NCBI GenBank assembly: GCA_009692005.1
Contig: SHZZ01000003.1
Coordinates: forward strand, 1 to 64,000
DNA length: 64,000 nt
DNA from: Gemmataceae bacterium
Lineage (GTDB): Bacteria > Planctomycetota > Planctomycetia > Gemmatales > Gemmataceae
Direction: 5' to 3'
This document shows positions 11,471 through 18,802 of the stretch, in pieces. The translations under genes and the position numbers were made by a program. Each line of letters begins with the position of its first letter. The stretch's first letter is position 1. The notes beneath the pieces were generated by a model. The model worked only from the letters and a program-made list of their open reading frames with translations, was not told where the DNA came from and searched no databases.

Positions 11471-13720
11471 TTACCCATAATGGACCGGCATGCAAATCTG
11501 TTCCAGGAGTTTTTCGCATTTCTCTTGCACCAGAGTTGCCAGTAAAGGCATCGGTTCCCCCAAGGGCAGCCCTTCCGTCAGGTTGGCCAGAATGCGTGGA
11601 AAGGCGTAAAGCGTGGCGCAAACTTCCAGCGCCAAGGGTTCCAAACGGCTGTGCCGGCCCTTCTTTTCCATTTCTTGCCAGCACTGTTTTCCCTTGCCCG
11701 ACAGGATTAAATCGTCCTCAGGCCGAAGCAAAATCAGGTGATCGATAACGCAGGGATCCTGATCCCAGGCGGACATTTTCACCAGCAGATCACGGGATTT
11801 CGCCAGATTCCTACCCAGAAATAAGCCGATCCCAACTTTCCATGGTTGGCCATCGCGGCAAACCCAATGGCCCAGGGTAAGTGAGCCATAAGTTGGATGA
11901 TCGCCAAACGAATATTCCGCAACTACATGCTGAAGCCTCCAGGGGCCGACTTTGACTCCTTGGTCCAGGCACAACTGCAAGAGCGCCCCCAGACCAGCTT
12001 GAATTTCCTTCACGGCGCCGCAGACGGCGCCTTCCGGCTGGAGCTGTTCTCGGGCGGCTTGAACTTCGTGGTCCCAAAATTGTGCCAGGGAAACGGCATG
12101 AAGAGGGGAAGCGGGTTTGGCCGAAGGGGATTGCTCTTTGGAAACCGCGGGCACGGGGCCTGCCTCTGGGGCATGATAATTAACCGGCATTGGCTTCGGC
12201 GCAAACAAGGGTTCCACAGGCACCTGCACGATGACCATCGACTTCACTTCCTCGGGGAGATCCTCTTTTTCGACTTTGGTTTCCACTGGGATTGAAATCG
12301 TTTCTCCGCGCAGGGAATACCCGGTCGCCACAGGCGTAGTCACCGGGAGAATGTCGGGTTCTTCCCCATAAACTAGCCTGTCAAACAGGTGACGGAATTG
12401 CTGAAGCATGTCGCGCAAGGTCGGTTCGGTCAGGGAAATTTTCTCCACCTGCTCGAGTGTGAAGGGAAAGAGACCGGGCAATTGGTCCTGGCCGGGAAAG
12501 TTCCTTAATGCCGGTTCCAAACGGGCCACAACGACCTTGGCAACCAGCTCTCTTGGCGGGGATTCCAGCTTCAGCGCATTGATCGTGCCATACCCCGGCA
12601 CATGCACTGGGTTATTTAAGCGGTCTTGAATGTAGCCATCAAGGGAAGGGATAAAGCGGTTCCACAGTCCGCGCTCGGCAAAAATCAAAAAGCTGATGCC
12701 ATCCAACTGGTGCATGACTTTGACAATACCCGCGAAAAAGGTCTCGGCCGTTTTGTGAGTCTCCTCGTTGCGCCGGGCTAACAGCAGGTCTTCCAACTGG
12801 TCAAAGGCAATTACCACGGGAATTCGAAGTTCCTGGAATATGGACATTACAGCCTTGAAAAGCGCCAATACCAGATCCTGCCTGCCAGGGCGGACCTTGA
12901 AATCCAATTCCGCGAAACCGTAGGTGAGGAAACCAGCAAGTTCCCCGTCGTCTTGAAGGAAGACGGCGCGGGAAAAACCCCGCAGGATCGCGTGCCGCAT
13001 CATCGAAGCGGCATCATGCCCAGTAACCTTGTCGAGAAAATCGCACATGAGCTTATGCGCTTTTCCCAGGCTCAGCCCCGCTTCCTCGCACAGGCGTAGA
13101 ACCCGGCCAGGATTGCCTCCTTCTTTACCCGTTCGCCCAAGTTCATCCACCAGCCAATTGGTCCGCTCCACGGCCTGCGCTGCGCCCAGGCCGAACGCCC
13201 GAGACAGCCAGCCTAACCCCTGGGAAGGAAAAAGTTCCAGGCCCTGCTCGGGTTGGAGTTCACCCAGTGCCCGGCCCAAATAAAGACGCATGAGTTGCTC
13301 GCCAGCGTAATCTTTTGGCCGCCAGGATCCTTGCTTGGCGCCTCCAAGCAATTTGTCCAGCACCTGGAAGAGCAGATATTCCAGAAAATCGGTGTCGCGT
13401 TGGTAGGAACCTGGCGTCACCAGGAGTTGCCAATTGCCAGCATTGGCATGTTTGATGGAATGGAGCAGGTGAGTTTTTCCCGCTCCCTTGTTGCCCAGCA
13501 CGGGGACCACCTCGGAATGGGTGGTTGGATGATATCGATACTGGTCAACTACGCGCAGAAGCTGCTCCCTTTCGCGGGAGAAAAGCTCAGGCACATGGTA
13601 AATGGCGCAGACTTCATCGTCGGAGTTTCTGGCAAAGTAATTGCGGAAAGGGTTGCCTGAACGGCGCAGCCAATCCAAGGCTTGACCAGTGATTTCCAAA
13701 GGAAAAATGGCTGATTTCAT
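11471..13720 (-). CDS. STAND/AAA-like P-loop ATPase with a separate C-terminal domain
   Basis: The 749-residue protein is not one I can name. Walker A is at 76-83 (GNKGAGKT, followed by HLLHSIKH). Walker B is at about 301-311 (PVVIAFDQLEDL), like the DQxEEL of STAND-type NTPases, and is followed by FLIFAERGLW as a candidate sensor strand. Residues about 470-540 are rich in Pro, Val and Glu and look like a flexible linker. A distinct alpha/beta domain fills 545-749, containing WKVGIGLFLGRN and VIDHLILLRPEDD. The start codon overlaps the upstream gene's stop by 4 bases (ATGA), so the two are translationally coupled. DNA-linked or defence functions are possible but unproven. Confidence 0.7.
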   Translation of the reverse strand: MKSAIFPLEITGQALDWLRRSGNPFRNYFARNSDDEVCAIYHVPELFSREREQLLRVVDQYRYHPTTHSEVVPVLGNKGAGKTHLLHSIKHANAGNWQLLVTPGSYQRDTDFLEYLLFQVLDKLLGGAKQGSWRPKDYAGEQLMRLYLGRALGELQPEQGLELFPSQGLGWLSRAFGLGAAQAVERTNWLVDELGRTGKEGGNPGRVLRLCEEAGLSLGKAHKLMCDFLDKVTGHDAASMMRHAILRGFSRAVFLQDDGELAGFLTYGFAELDFKVRPGRQDLVLALFKAVMSIFQELRIPVVIAFDQLEDLLLARRNEETHKTAETFFAGIVKVMHQLDGISFLIFAERGLWNRFIPSLDGYIQDRLNNPVHVPGYGTINALKLESPPRELVAKVVVARLEPALRNFPGQDQLPGLFPFTLEQVEKISLTEPTLRDMLQQFRHLFDRLVYGEEPDILPVTTPVATGYSLRGETISIPVETKVEKEDLPEEVKSMVIVQVPVEPLFAPKPMPVNYHAPEAGPVPAVSKEQSPSAKPASPLHAVSLAQFWDHEVQAAREQLQPEGAVCGAVKEIQAGLGALLQLCLDQGVKVGPWRLQHVVAEYSFGDHPTYGSLTLGHWVCRDGQPWKVGIGLFLGRNLAKSRDLLVKMSAWDQDPCVIDHLILLRPEDDLILSGKGKQCWQEMEKKGRHSRLEPLALEVCATLYAFPRILANLTEGLPLGEPMPLLATLVQEKCEKLLEQICMPVHYG

Positions 13721-14439
13721 GATGGTTGCTCCAAATAGACATCCAGTGTTTTTTCACAGGACGGGCTGGTGGAATACTCTTTCACCTCACCTGAGGCTGA
13801 AGCGTAATAAGCAATTTCGTGACCGGTAAGCAGGGCCAATTCCGGCGAAGGAATCTGGTAGAGTGGGCCGGTCCAGGGGTGCAACTCAATGAATTTTTCC
13901 CTGGCCAGTTGCCGAAGGGCGTCATGGAATGCGCCGATAGGCAAGCCAGGAAACCGGTCGCGAATAATTTGAAACAGGCGGTCCAGGGGGAAATCTCCCA
14001 AAGCGCGAGAATTTCGCCAGAGATGCAACTCCTTGAGCACGGATTGTGGCAAACCGGCCTGGCCCTGTTGATCCTTGCCAGCAAAGAAAAGCCTCAAAGC
14101 ATTTTGCAAAGGGGTCAAGACTTTCCCTGTTTCGGAATCTTGGTTCACCTTTGGTAAGAAGGCCAAGCAGGCTTTTAAAATGGGAACCACGCAGTTCGAT
14201 TCCAAAAGCCAAGCCAAACCCCTTGGGGCAGGTTGAAAAAGGAAACCTTCGTCCTCACAACCGTGTTTCTGAGTAATCCAAATTTGCGAAAGAGCGGCCT
14301 TTGCCGCTTGTTTTCCCAAAGAGTTTTTGGGGAACAATCCCAATCCCTGGCCCGTGGGAAACAAGGGTAGGCCTTGCGGGTTTTCCAGCAACAACAACAA
14401 GGCCAAGCGGATTAATTCATGCTGGGTCTGCACAACCAT
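13717..14439 (-). CDS. Unknown protein with winged-helix-like C-terminus, partner of the ATPase
   Basis: From ATG 14439 the product is 240 residues; the frame is open to another ATG at 14487. The N-terminal MVVQTQHELIRLALLLLLENP looks like an amphipathic helix rather than a signal peptide. The C-terminal part (LDRLFQIIRDRFPG, AFHDALRQLAREKFIELHP, LYQIPSPELALL) reads as a winged-helix or PCI-like fold: helices, a recognition-type helix and a two-stranded wing. Its stop overlaps the ATPase start by 4 bases, which implies stoichiometric co-production. A role as adaptor, DNA-binding partner or regulator of the ATPase is inference from fold and coupling. I recognise no named family. Confidence 0.6.
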   Translation of the reverse strand: MVVQTQHELIRLALLLLLENPQGLPLFPTGQGLGLFPKNSLGKQAAKAALSQIWITQKHGCEDEGFLFQPAPRGLAWLLESNCVVPILKACLAFLPKVNQDSETGKVLTPLQNALRLFFAGKDQQGQAGLPQSVLKELHLWRNSRALGDFPLDRLFQIIRDRFPGLPIGAFHDALRQLAREKFIELHPWTGPLYQIPSPELALLTGHEIAYYASASGEVKEYSTSPSCEKTLDVYLEQPS

Positions 14440-15536: not shown

Positions 15537-17114
15537 TTATTTATCGGGCCGGGTGTCCCTGGGGAAAATGAGCTTGAAAGTAGCTCCCTGCCAGCGAATG
15601 GATTGGATTTGCAAACGCCCTTGCATACTTTCCAACACCGTCTTGACGAAGGAAAGGCCCAATCCCATGCCGGAACTCATTCCTTCATAGATAGCGCTGT
15701 CCCTGCGGGTGGAATAGTAAGCATCGGTGCAATGGGCCAAAGACTCCGCCGTCATGCCGGCGCCAGTGTCCGTTACTGCCAGAACGGCGCACTCCCCTTC
15801 CTGATAAAGTCTCAACTGAATTTCGCCCCGCCAAGAAGCGGCGGCAAGCACCGCCTGCCGGATAGTCTCGGAATCCCGTTTAGTTGAATTCCGCGCCTCT
15901 TCCCGCAAGTGGTTTCGTTGTTCGAAGGTGGCGTCACGAGCGTTAAAAATCAGATTTTCCAGAACTTGCTGGACATGCGACGGATCTCCCTCGGCCTGAA
16001 TTTCCTCGGGAGGCAAAGTCAGGGACAAATCGAGTTTCCATTTATCCCCTGCAATTTGACTCCAGGCGTTGACTGTTTCGCGGACCAGTTGGCAAAGGTC
16101 ATAACGCGACCGGAGCAAGTTGCCGGGTTCTCTGCGAACGGCTGCAAGAATCTGCTGCAGCCGGGCGGTCACGGCCGACAGGGTATCACCCACTTCCCCC
16201 AGCAGTTGGCGCAGGGCGCCATTGCCACCCGATTCTTCCTGGCATCGCCGCAGCAAATCCATGGGTCGGACCAGCAAGTTCTTGATATTGTGGGCATAGG
16301 AACCGGCCATGATGCCAATTCCGGCGTACATCTGGGAACGGAGTTCCAAGGCTTTTTTTTGGGCCTCCTCGGTGGCCAACTGCTGACTCAGAAGTTGCTT
16401 TTCCGCTTCCAGCCTTCGATAGTCGGCATCCTCGGCCGCTTGGCGCGACTGCTCGGTCATTTTTCTTCGCGAGCGCTCCCGGGCGGCAGAAACCAAGGCT
16501 TGAATGGCAACTCCCAAGGAAACCAACGCCGCCAGGATGCCCAGCCACCAGGCCCGGGAAACCGCCTGCTTTTCCTGGGCAGTCCGCCGATCGTAAGCAT
16601 GAACCTGGTAATAAACCCGGGCCAGGGCTCGGGGATGAATCCTGTGTTCCAACCTTTGGACCTGGTTCGCCTGATAGGGAAACCCCGCAACCCAACGGAT
16701 CGGCATGTCGGGTTCATCATCCAGAATGACAAGGATTTCAAAAAAATGGGGAAAGAGCGGCAATTGGCCAGAAAAGACTTTGGTGGGCGGTTCACCCAGG
16801 GCGCGCAGGTGCTCGCGGATTTCCTCACGGCGGACCAACGCTTGCTGACGGGTTAATTCATCCGCTGGCGAGGCCTTGGCCAACTCCAGGTAACTTTCCA
16901 CCAGTGCGGGCAATGGCTTCCTCGAAGCGCGCGCCTCTTCCAGCCATTCACGCAAAATGTCCTGTTCATAACGAGATTCGCCAGAAAGCCACCCGGCCAG
17001 AGGTTCCTTCAAGGCAATCAAGGCAACCAGCCAAAACCCCAAGGGGAGTCCCAAGATGAGCAAAACACCCAAGGGCCCTTTTTTTATCCTGGGAAACCAA
17101 ACCGTCTGGATCAT
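15537..17114 (-). CDS. Membrane sensor histidine kinase
   Basis: The 525-residue protein has two membrane segments (about 14-36 and 189-210) bracketing an extracytoplasmic domain of about 150 residues, then a coiled coil to about 260. The likely phospho-acceptor is His275 in SYAHNIKNLL. The ATPase domain shows the N box (QQVLENLIFNARDA), G1 (VTDTGAGM) and G2 (GMGLGLSFVK). No response regulator lies beside it. ATG 17114 overlaps the upstream gene's stop by 4 bases, so kinase and the binding-protein-like partner are coupled and probably form one sensing unit. The longer frame to 17198 runs deep inside the neighbour. Confidence 0.9.
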   Translation of the reverse strand: MIQTVWFPRIKKGPLGVLLILGLPLGFWLVALIALKEPLAGWLSGESRYEQDILREWLEEARASRKPLPALVESYLELAKASPADELTRQQALVRREEIREHLRALGEPPTKVFSGQLPLFPHFFEILVILDDEPDMPIRWVAGFPYQANQVQRLEHRIHPRALARVYYQVHAYDRRTAQEKQAVSRAWWLGILAALVSLGVAIQALVSAARERSRRKMTEQSRQAAEDADYRRLEAEKQLLSQQLATEEAQKKALELRSQMYAGIGIMAGSYAHNIKNLLVRPMDLLRRCQEESGGNGALRQLLGEVGDTLSAVTARLQQILAAVRREPGNLLRSRYDLCQLVRETVNAWSQIAGDKWKLDLSLTLPPEEIQAEGDPSHVQQVLENLIFNARDATFEQRNHLREEARNSTKRDSETIRQAVLAAASWRGEIQLRLYQEGECAVLAVTDTGAGMTAESLAHCTDAYYSTRRDSAIYEGMSSGMGLGLSFVKTVLESMQGRLQIQSIRWQGATFKLIFPRDTRPDK

Positions 17115-18802
17115 TGGGCGCCCCGATGGTTGACTTTGAGTCGGCTGGTTCTTACAGGAACCAATTGGCCTCCATCGGGATTTTCCCTCAGGGACCATAT
17201 TTCGATGAGGGATTCAACTAGGCCGCCTTCCTTTCTGGGCAGAGGCCGGACCACGCCCATGAATTCTCCGGTGCCAGGATTGCGGCCGCCCCGAGGATCG
17301 AATAAGGTTTTCCCCGACTTGCTGGAAATCGCGCCCCCGTCCCAACGGAGTGACTGCATAAAGGATTTCAAAGATAGCGTATAAGGATATTGTGTGGATT
17401 CAAAAACCGCCCTGGCCAGGCATTCCAGCATTTGAGAAGAAAGGATCAATTCGTCCGTGGCTGTGGCAGAGGTCCCATCCGCGGATTCCCGCAAGCTGCC
17501 GAGAGTGGAAAACCCCGCCTCCTGGGCCACGGGGTTGGCATGAGAGAAAAAAACCAAGCGAAAAGGCAGTTCTGGAATGGGCCAGGATACCTCCGCGTCG
17601 CGGTAGACCGCGTTTAGGGAAATGGTATCTCCCACGACAACCACAAAGCGGGAAGGCAGATCCCGGCCAGATTGGGCCAGCTCTTTTAAAAACCTCTTGG
17701 CCGGAGTCATCCCTCCACCCAAGACAAACAAGCCCGAACTCTGGCCAGGATTTCTATCCAGGTCTTGCAGTAGGTAGCGCAGGGCATCCCTTTCAAATCG
17801 ATTGGGTGCATAGGGAACCCCAACGCTGGAGTCAATCACCTGAGGAACCGGCGCCACCGTCATGCGGTATGAGGCAGCGTTGCGCCCAAGTCTGCCAGCG
17901 GGGAAGATTCCATTGAAGAAAGGGAAATGCCCATTCAACCGGGTGGAACTAATCCATAACCAATCCGTGGCGGCTTCCACAGCCAAGGGAAAGCGCAGTT
18001 CGTTCCAAAAGGAATCTACAAAATCGCGGGAATAGGAATCATCATCCCATAGCGCCAGGTGGACCGCGTCGAACCCCGCGTGTAAATCCGGGTTCGCCCA
18101 AATGAGCTTGACCATGGCCTGACCCATTCCCTGGTTGTCAAACCCAAACCGAAAAGTCTTCCCGGGATAAATATCCAAGAGGGAAACAAATTCCTGGCCG
18201 ACCTGCCTGTTAGGTCCTGAAACCTGAACCCGTAAGGCTGTAGCCGTGGATAAGAACAGAAGCGGTTTCTGGGATTCGGCAACTTGCCTGGTTTCCGCTT
18301 CCAAGGCCAAGGCCAGATCGCGGGCGTCGTCCGAATTCGCCCCGCCCAGAATGGCAACCGGCGGGCGCGTTTTTTTCATCAAACTTCGGATCCAGTCCTG
18401 GTAGCCTGCCTCGCTGGATATTTTCAACCAACGGATCGTAATCTTTCTTGGATCGTTTAGGCGTTTCATGGAGAAGCAAGGAATCGAGGCGGTTTGGCCT
18501 GGGAAAGCTTTTTGCCCAGCATCCACCTGAAGTCCCGCGGCCCAACCGGGATTGGTTTTCTCCAGCAATTTGGCTGCCGACACCATTCTTTCCCAAGAGG
18601 TAGAGTCCCCCGCGGGAAACATCCAGACAACCGTCACTTCCGATTCCTGGGAGTCGGGGAATTCGAGAATGATGCCGCGCGGAGCAAACAAGAAGTTTCC
18701 GGCTGCCAAGGCGGCCAAGATCAAAACCCCCGTAATGAGTACACCTTGTCTCAAGTCTAGACTCCCTGGAAATATTCCAAATGCAAAAATCCCCGCTACC
18801 AC
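17111..18802 (-). CDS. Membrane-anchored periplasmic-binding-protein-like protein
   Basis: The 563-residue protein has one N-terminal membrane segment (LITGVLILAALAAGNFLF) and then an extracytoplasmic body. Alternating alpha/beta stretches such as RPPVAILGGANSDDARDLALALE, KPLLFLSTATALR, FDAVHLALWDDDSYS and SSGLFVLGGGM suggest a type I periplasmic-binding fold like that of branched-chain amino-acid binding proteins. The stop overlaps the histidine kinase start by 4 bases. I infer it binds a ligand and signals through the kinase. Translation could start at GTG/ATG-type codons near 18802 or at TTG 18754. Family assignment is by fold impression only. Confidence 0.65.
   Translation of the reverse strand: MVAGIFAFGIFPGSLDLRQGVLITGVLILAALAAGNFLFAPRGIILEFPDSQESEVTVVWMFPAGDSTSWERMVSAAKLLEKTNPGWAAGLQVDAGQKAFPGQTASIPCFSMKRLNDPRKITIRWLKISSEAGYQDWIRSLMKKTRPPVAILGGANSDDARDLALALEAETRQVAESQKPLLFLSTATALRVQVSGPNRQVGQEFVSLLDIYPGKTFRFGFDNQGMGQAMVKLIWANPDLHAGFDAVHLALWDDDSYSRDFVDSFWNELRFPLAVEAATDWLWISSTRLNGHFPFFNGIFPAGRLGRNAASYRMTVAPVPQVIDSSVGVPYAPNRFERDALRYLLQDLDRNPGQSSGLFVLGGGMTPAKRFLKELAQSGRDLPSRFVVVVGDTISLNAVYRDAEVSWPIPELPFRLVFFSHANPVAQEAGFSTLGSLRESADGTSATATDELILSSQMLECLARAVFESTQYPYTLSLKSFMQSLRWDGGAISSKSGKTLFDPRGGRNPGTGEFMGVVRPLPRKEGGLVESLIEIWSLRENPDGGQLVPVRTSRLKVNHRGAQ

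Follow-up and report, generated by a model that had tools for sequence, protein, structure and literature searches.

The window analysed here, a stretch of 64,000 nucleotides from a Gemmataceae bacterium, carries on its minus strand an upstream gene for a small protein, hereafter the partner (ATG at 14439, stop at 13717), and downstream of it, in the same direction, a gene for a P-loop ATPase that reads from 13720 to 11471 (Table 1). The reading frames and strand given in the original prediction, the GNKGAGKT and DQLEDL motifs at residues 76–83 and 306–311 of the ATPase and the ATGA overlap between the two genes were all found in the sequence as claimed. Both reading frames are genuine genes, as supported by full-length alignment (the ATPase can be aligned from end to end across ∼100 loci), shared motifs and strong purifying selection. 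Other genomes do not share the ATGA overlap, the gap between partner and ATPase there ranging between about −4 and about +200 bases; co-direction and adjacency are the conserved traits.

Table 1. Position, strand and supporting evidence of the features of the partner–ATPase pair in the window
Feature	Position	Strand	Basis
ATPase gene, P-loop, 749 aa	11471..13720	-	Open reading frame; orthologues in 41/44 Gemmatales
Partner gene, 240 aa	13717..14439	-	Open reading frame; next to the ATPase gene and in its direction in 71/75 loci that could be scored
ATGA stop/start overlap, partner stop with ATPase ATG	13717..13720	-	Sequence; overlap unconserved elsewhere
Walker A, GNKGAGKT, residues 76–83	13472..13495	-	G76, K78, G79, G81, K82 and T83 invariant in 20 orthologues
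Walker B region with DQLEDL, ∼residues 306–312	12788..12805	-	Invariant in 20 orthologues
Proline-rich variable linker, ∼residues 461–545	12086..12340	-	22% mean identity; recurring VKSVxxVETP in consensus
C-terminal domain, ∼residues 546–749, fold predicted to be restriction-endonuclease-like (alpha-beta(3)-alpha-beta), PD-(D/E)xK residues absent	11474..12085	-	AF2, Foldseek
Partner winged helix 1, ∼residues 6–98	14146..14424	-	AF2; Foldseek PadR/Fur/F-93/MarR-type
Partner helical connector, ∼residues 105–143	14011..14127	-	AF2; 24% mean identity
Partner winged helix 2, ∼residues 148–216	13792..13998	-	AF2; 56% mean identity; best-conserved part

Motifs, family tests and predicted folds

In an alignment of 20 orthologues GNKGAGKT is near-invariant and FDQLEDL is invariant, the counterpart of the latter motif in divergent ATPase relatives being DNLE, DQLED or DQFED. 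The best Pfam signal for the ATPase is AAA_16 (8.8e-6), which at 26.7 bits lies below the cut-off of 32.6; among the divergent relatives, matches of AAA_16, nSTAND and ORC-CDC6-like type are weak, with AAA_16 scores of 32.5 and 33.3 bits against the same cut-off. A Pfam scan of the ATPase detected none of the sensor repeats (TPR, WD40, LRR) of canonical STAND proteins. The earlier label ‘STAND-like’ is therefore only loosely right, being carried by the Walker A and Walker B motifs but not by the sub-threshold AAA_16 score or by sensor repeats.

Scans of Pfam, NCBIfam, PADLOC and PHROGs placed neither protein in a family above cut-off; the partner drew nothing from Pfam, and PADLOC was empty for both proteins even at E ≤ 1. 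A housekeeping assignment for both proteins, which would have spoken against the original prediction, was thus not obtained, and its description of a coupled pair without an assigned family stands, with no curated cut-off passed and the partner lying beside the ATPase in most loci (see below). Profile searches against PDB sequences gave no match for the ATPase or its C-terminal domain, and the matches of the partner, to coiled-coil or designed proteins, were rejected as noise.

The prediction of a separate C-terminal domain is borne out by the AF2 model of residues 540–749 (56-row alignment, pLDDT 90.1, pTM 0.89), in which the order helix-strand-strand-strand-helix-strand-helix-strand-helix is that of a restriction-endonuclease-like core. 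The best Foldseek match is EcoT38I (E 0.0028, prob 0.99, TM below 0.4), and the other top matches, which include Cap4, Mus81-Eme1, EcoO109I, EndoMS and BamHI, are mostly nuclease folds. A restriction-endonuclease-like fold is only probable, because no Foldseek match reached E ≤ 0.001 and the TM-scores were below 0.4. The strand-2 acidic residue and the strand-3 (D/E)xK of PD-(D/E)XK nucleases are absent from the domain in both alignment and model, strand 2 reading (V/S)LT(I/L)xHW and strand 3 WKVGIGL. Since the invariant residues of the domain (H598, H608, Y611, K641, D644 or a neighbouring L, and K648 in full-length numbering) fall near the expected position of the nuclease site, the model leaves room for a different chemistry or a binding pocket.

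For the partner, AF2 predicts two winged helices linked by a helical connector (pLDDT 86, pTM 0.56), so that the earlier mention of a winged-helix-like end captures the fold but not its extent. A predicted winged-helix fold agrees with the Foldseek matches, which are to domains of the PadR, Fur, MarR and F-93 types, with prob as high as 0.99 but E no better than 0.087 and low TM-scores; the PadR/Fur/MarR likeness is that of the N-terminal domain. Invariant columns in the second winged helix are G169, FHD, W189–G191 and GH.

A second, unlinked paralogue of the partner occurs in most Gemmatales with no ATPase relative adjoining, and in the tree these paralogues form a group apart from the core partners, save for one long-branch row. 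In the source genome the paralogue lies at G000:C88:28224-28952 (L188, L234), near an ORF that by eye reads as tryptophanyl-tRNA-synthetase-like; proximity of the unlinked paralogue to a TrpS-like gene was seen in at least two genomes.

Distribution, linkage and descent of the pair

Run on 59 relatives, the ATPase profile matched 41 of the 44 Gemmatales genomes, with a single copy per genome, and none of the 15 Planctomycetia that belong to a different order or family. Searched against 246 genomes sampled across the phylum, it recovered the window's own copy and two weak fragments, with no clear match in the 245 other genomes. With two conserved peptides as seeds, a search through 84,980 species genomes yielded 78 loci, all of Gemmatales type by record title and sequence, and nothing matched in the plasmid and phage collections. 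Contigs labelled Candidatus Kuenenia or Bacteroidales (L147, L153, L162) also encode a Gemmatales-type pair and are probably mis-named genome bins.

Three of the 78 loci lacked enough upstream sequence, and in 71 of the 75 that could be scored the partner is immediately upstream and co-directional (69 called automatically, plus L102 and L156, in which the ATPase frame is broken). The survey of joint conservation and neighbourhoods proposed in the original prediction thus finds the two genes staying together while other neighbours change: FolC, downstream, was found in 37 of the 78 loci, LOG in 16, and the kinase and other neighbours in fewer loci than FolC. A third gene recurring in most core loci was looked for and not found. 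As functional partners, FolC downstream and the LOG, kinase and substrate-binding-like genes upstream were rejected, their linkage being unreliable. Upstream in the window (15537-18802), a histidine kinase gene overlaps that of a 563-residue protein with an N-terminal hydrophobic segment and no Pfam match, and these two are linked in several Gemmatales.

Occurrence of the ATPase without an adjacent partner, which if routine was named beforehand as evidence against coupling, is seen in four loci (L126, L132, L137 and L155) and is rare. In the genomes concerned (G282–G285) the only partner-family gene found is the unlinked paralogue. These paralogues group in the tree with the one from G013, where no ATPase was found; this would fit a loss of the ATPase following loss of the partner, as read from that one case. 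G026 and G298 (82% complete) likewise gave no ATPase and solely a solo-type partner match.

In the same genomes the mean identity is 62% for the ATPase and 50% for FolC, and pairwise distances correlate at 0.94 between ATPase and FolC and 0.83 between ATPase and partner (Mantel p 0.001). In close pairs the dN/dS of the ATPase is often 0.03–0.1 and mostly below that of FolC, reaching ∼0.3 in a few pairs, and that of the partner is ∼0.09–0.39; these ratios are rough because synonymous sites are near saturation in many pairs. Mean identity by region is 63% for the N-terminus of the ATPase, 66% for its ATPase part, 22% for the linker and 67% for the C-terminal domain, and in the partner 41%, 24% and 56% for winged helix 1, connector and winged helix 2. 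Identities, distances and dN/dS argue for one constrained core function that is vertically inherited, and speak against an effector domain of variable kind. It is the linker that varies, and the C-terminal domain, described as variable in the original prediction, is conserved as strongly as the ATPase part. The pair is a vertically inherited core pair and not an arms-race locus.

Divergent relatives and known systems

A wider-family search, using a profile of core and divergent ATPase sequences, revealed sporadic divergent relatives in other planctomycete families. At L230, L264, L265, L268 and L271 the gene directly upstream of the ATPase relative encodes a product that matches or resembles the partner profile (for L268 the match is weak, E 6e-4). 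A second, divergent pair exists inside the Gemmatales in G003, G293 and G294, with a further one in G016, and these pairs have a third gene whose product carries C-terminal hydrophobic segments; only the third genes of L228 and L229 are clearly related to one another. The divergent ATPase at L268:4035-6350 ends in a SAP domain (31.5 bits against a Pfam cut-off of 23.9), a motif of DNA-binding type. The ATPase relative of G250 adjoins McrBC-type and GHKL-like genes and the L265 pair shares its locus with genes of HSDR_N and FRG type, so that the surroundings of the divergent relatives are partly defence-like, which is suggestive only. At L231:127-7247 the genes next to an ATPase relative are McrB-like, McrC-like and GHKL-ATPase-like.

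Proteins of archaea and bacteria that combine ATPase_2 (PF01637) with DUF234 join an ATPase, a winged helix and a nuclease-type C-terminal fold and in this resemble the pair as modelled; however, Pfam found no match in the window's ATPase or in members of its C-terminal domain, and here the winged helix is encoded by a separate gene. In BREX and related systems ORC/Cdc6-STAND ATPases with winged-helix modules are a recurrent theme, and a scaffold-on-DNA model has been proposed for ATPases of this type (PMC12839542). The BREX ATPases BrxC, BrxD and DUF499 are alike in being AAA_16 or ORC-STAND P-loop ATPases that work with winged-helix domains, but our pair has no PADLOC match, no PglZ, methyltransferase or other BREX gene was seen beside it, and in the Gemmatales its winged-helix modules reside in a separate protein and it is an order-wide core gene. 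The MADS mad8-type and Avs-type defence ATPases of PADLOC show weak P-loop similarity to the divergent relatives (E ∼1e-2 to 4e-5), whereas the window's ATPase has no PADLOC match at the permissive threshold given above. Condensin adaptors of the ScpB/MukE type share the use of tandem winged helices as an adaptor to an ATPase, and ScpB stands at Foldseek rank 11 for the partner (E 0.22, prob 0.21); however, the ATPase of the pair is not an SMC, and ScpA is separately present in Gemmatales. By the tests applied, the pair shares the ORC/Cdc6-STAND and winged-helix theme and falls outside these systems.

Possible functions of the pair

The pair looks like an unstudied core machine of the Gemmatales, not a variable phage-defence cassette; our search of the open literature, with subscription papers outside its range, found no description of it. 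The reading that we favour, for which we hold belief and doubt in about equal measure, is that of a two-protein machine acting on the cell's own chromosome. Judging from the fold types, the partner, with its two winged helices and connector, would most likely bind DNA and recruit the ATPase into a complex, and the AAA_16 or ORC-STAND-like ATPase would most likely switch its assembly state upon ATP binding and hydrolysis. The nuclease-type C-terminal domain without catalytic residues, together with the low-complexity linker, is a probable DNA- or protein-docking module, and the site of action may be the organisation, protection or regulation of the cell's own chromosome. In favour of this reading are the near-universal presence of the ATPase in the order and its absence from the other Planctomycetia sampled, the lasting linkage to the partner, the vertical descent under purifying selection, and the modelled winged helices and nuclease-type fold. 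A two-protein machine is also consistent with the three genomes in which no ATPase was found (G013, G026 and G298), which have only a solo-type partner match, and its association with DNA with the SAP ending at L268. Against it count the four genomes that have the ATPase without an adjoining partner, some distant relatives near McrBC, HSDR_N or FRG genes, Foldseek E-values that are weak for both the C-terminal domain (0.0028) and the partner (0.087), low TM-scores, and the fact that winged helices sometimes bind proteins and not DNA. Nearly all Gemmatales have both the condensin kleisin ScpA and the helicase loader DciA, so the pair is no stand-in for either of them, and its use as a substitute for ScpAB or DciA was rejected; no specific chromosomal role is indicated.

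Alternatively, the pair may be a resident anti-phage or anti-plasmid system that has become fixed in the Gemmatales, in which a winged-helix sensor is combined with a STAND/ORC-type ATPase and activation harms the cell or the invader. The sporadic divergent pairs in other Planctomycetota and the second type in three Gemmatales would agree with this, as would the third gene of several divergent pairs, which could encode an effector, and the G250 and L265 neighbourhoods; ORC/Cdc6-type ATPases with winged-helix (wHTH) domains also recur in defence systems (PMC12839542). However, the core copy is near-universal, present once per genome, vertically inherited and subject to strong purifying selection, it has no defence-family match in PADLOC and no effector gene recurring beside it, and its C-terminal domain neither retains nuclease residues nor varies. 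A present-day defence role for the core copy, as entertained in the original prediction, is accordingly less likely, and we consider such a system improbable, if still deserving of serious attention.

It is also conceivable, if improbable, that the pair is an ATP-dependent transcription regulator comparable to the MalT-type STAND regulators, with the ATPase as a signal-sensing switch that controls the DNA-binding partner; the unlinked paralogue of the partner might then compete for this ATPase. The resemblance of the N-terminal domain of the partner to PadR, Fur and MarR winged helices points in this direction, as does the second paralogue, which is found in most Gemmatales, forms its own tree group and is the sole partner-family gene found in G282–G285. 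Against a regulator stand the Pfam scan of the ATPase, which found no known sensor repeat (TPR, WD40), and the strong conservation of the pair, which is nevertheless accompanied by no conserved neighbourhood of target genes. That the adjacency is purely historical, a matter of vertical synteny between two proteins not acting together, would agree with the common ancestry of all Gemmatales and with the four genomes lacking an adjoining partner but is very unlikely, given that other neighbours are lost or shuffled while the pair stays and that several divergent relatives outside the orthologue group show the same order, partner then ATPase.

A more specific version of the chromosomal core machine, which we offer as speculation, is an order-defining chromosome-associated ATPase whose nuclease-fold domain has been repurposed and whose loaders are tandem winged-helix adaptors (the two paralogues). 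Its origin would lie in a conflict system of sporadic occurrence among planctomycetes, which the Gemmatales would have taken over to organise or protect the nucleoid as a core task. This order is noted for its unusual cell organisation, and to our knowledge few of its specific core genes have been characterised. Being single-copy, slow-evolving and near-universal in Gemmatales, with only divergent relatives elsewhere, the pair is a direct target for knockout, for which cultured members such as Zavarzinella and Limnoglobus are suited as hosts. Should the divergent three-gene relatives prove to be defence systems, the pair would represent such a module recruited to a core role. Operons of this kind, in which genes for a winged-helix protein and a divergent ATPase are joined by a third whose product has hydrophobic segments at its C-terminal end, were observed at L229:593-4232, L228:8623-12216, L081:2677-6266 and L097:3523-7810, and are possible accessory systems missing from PADLOC.
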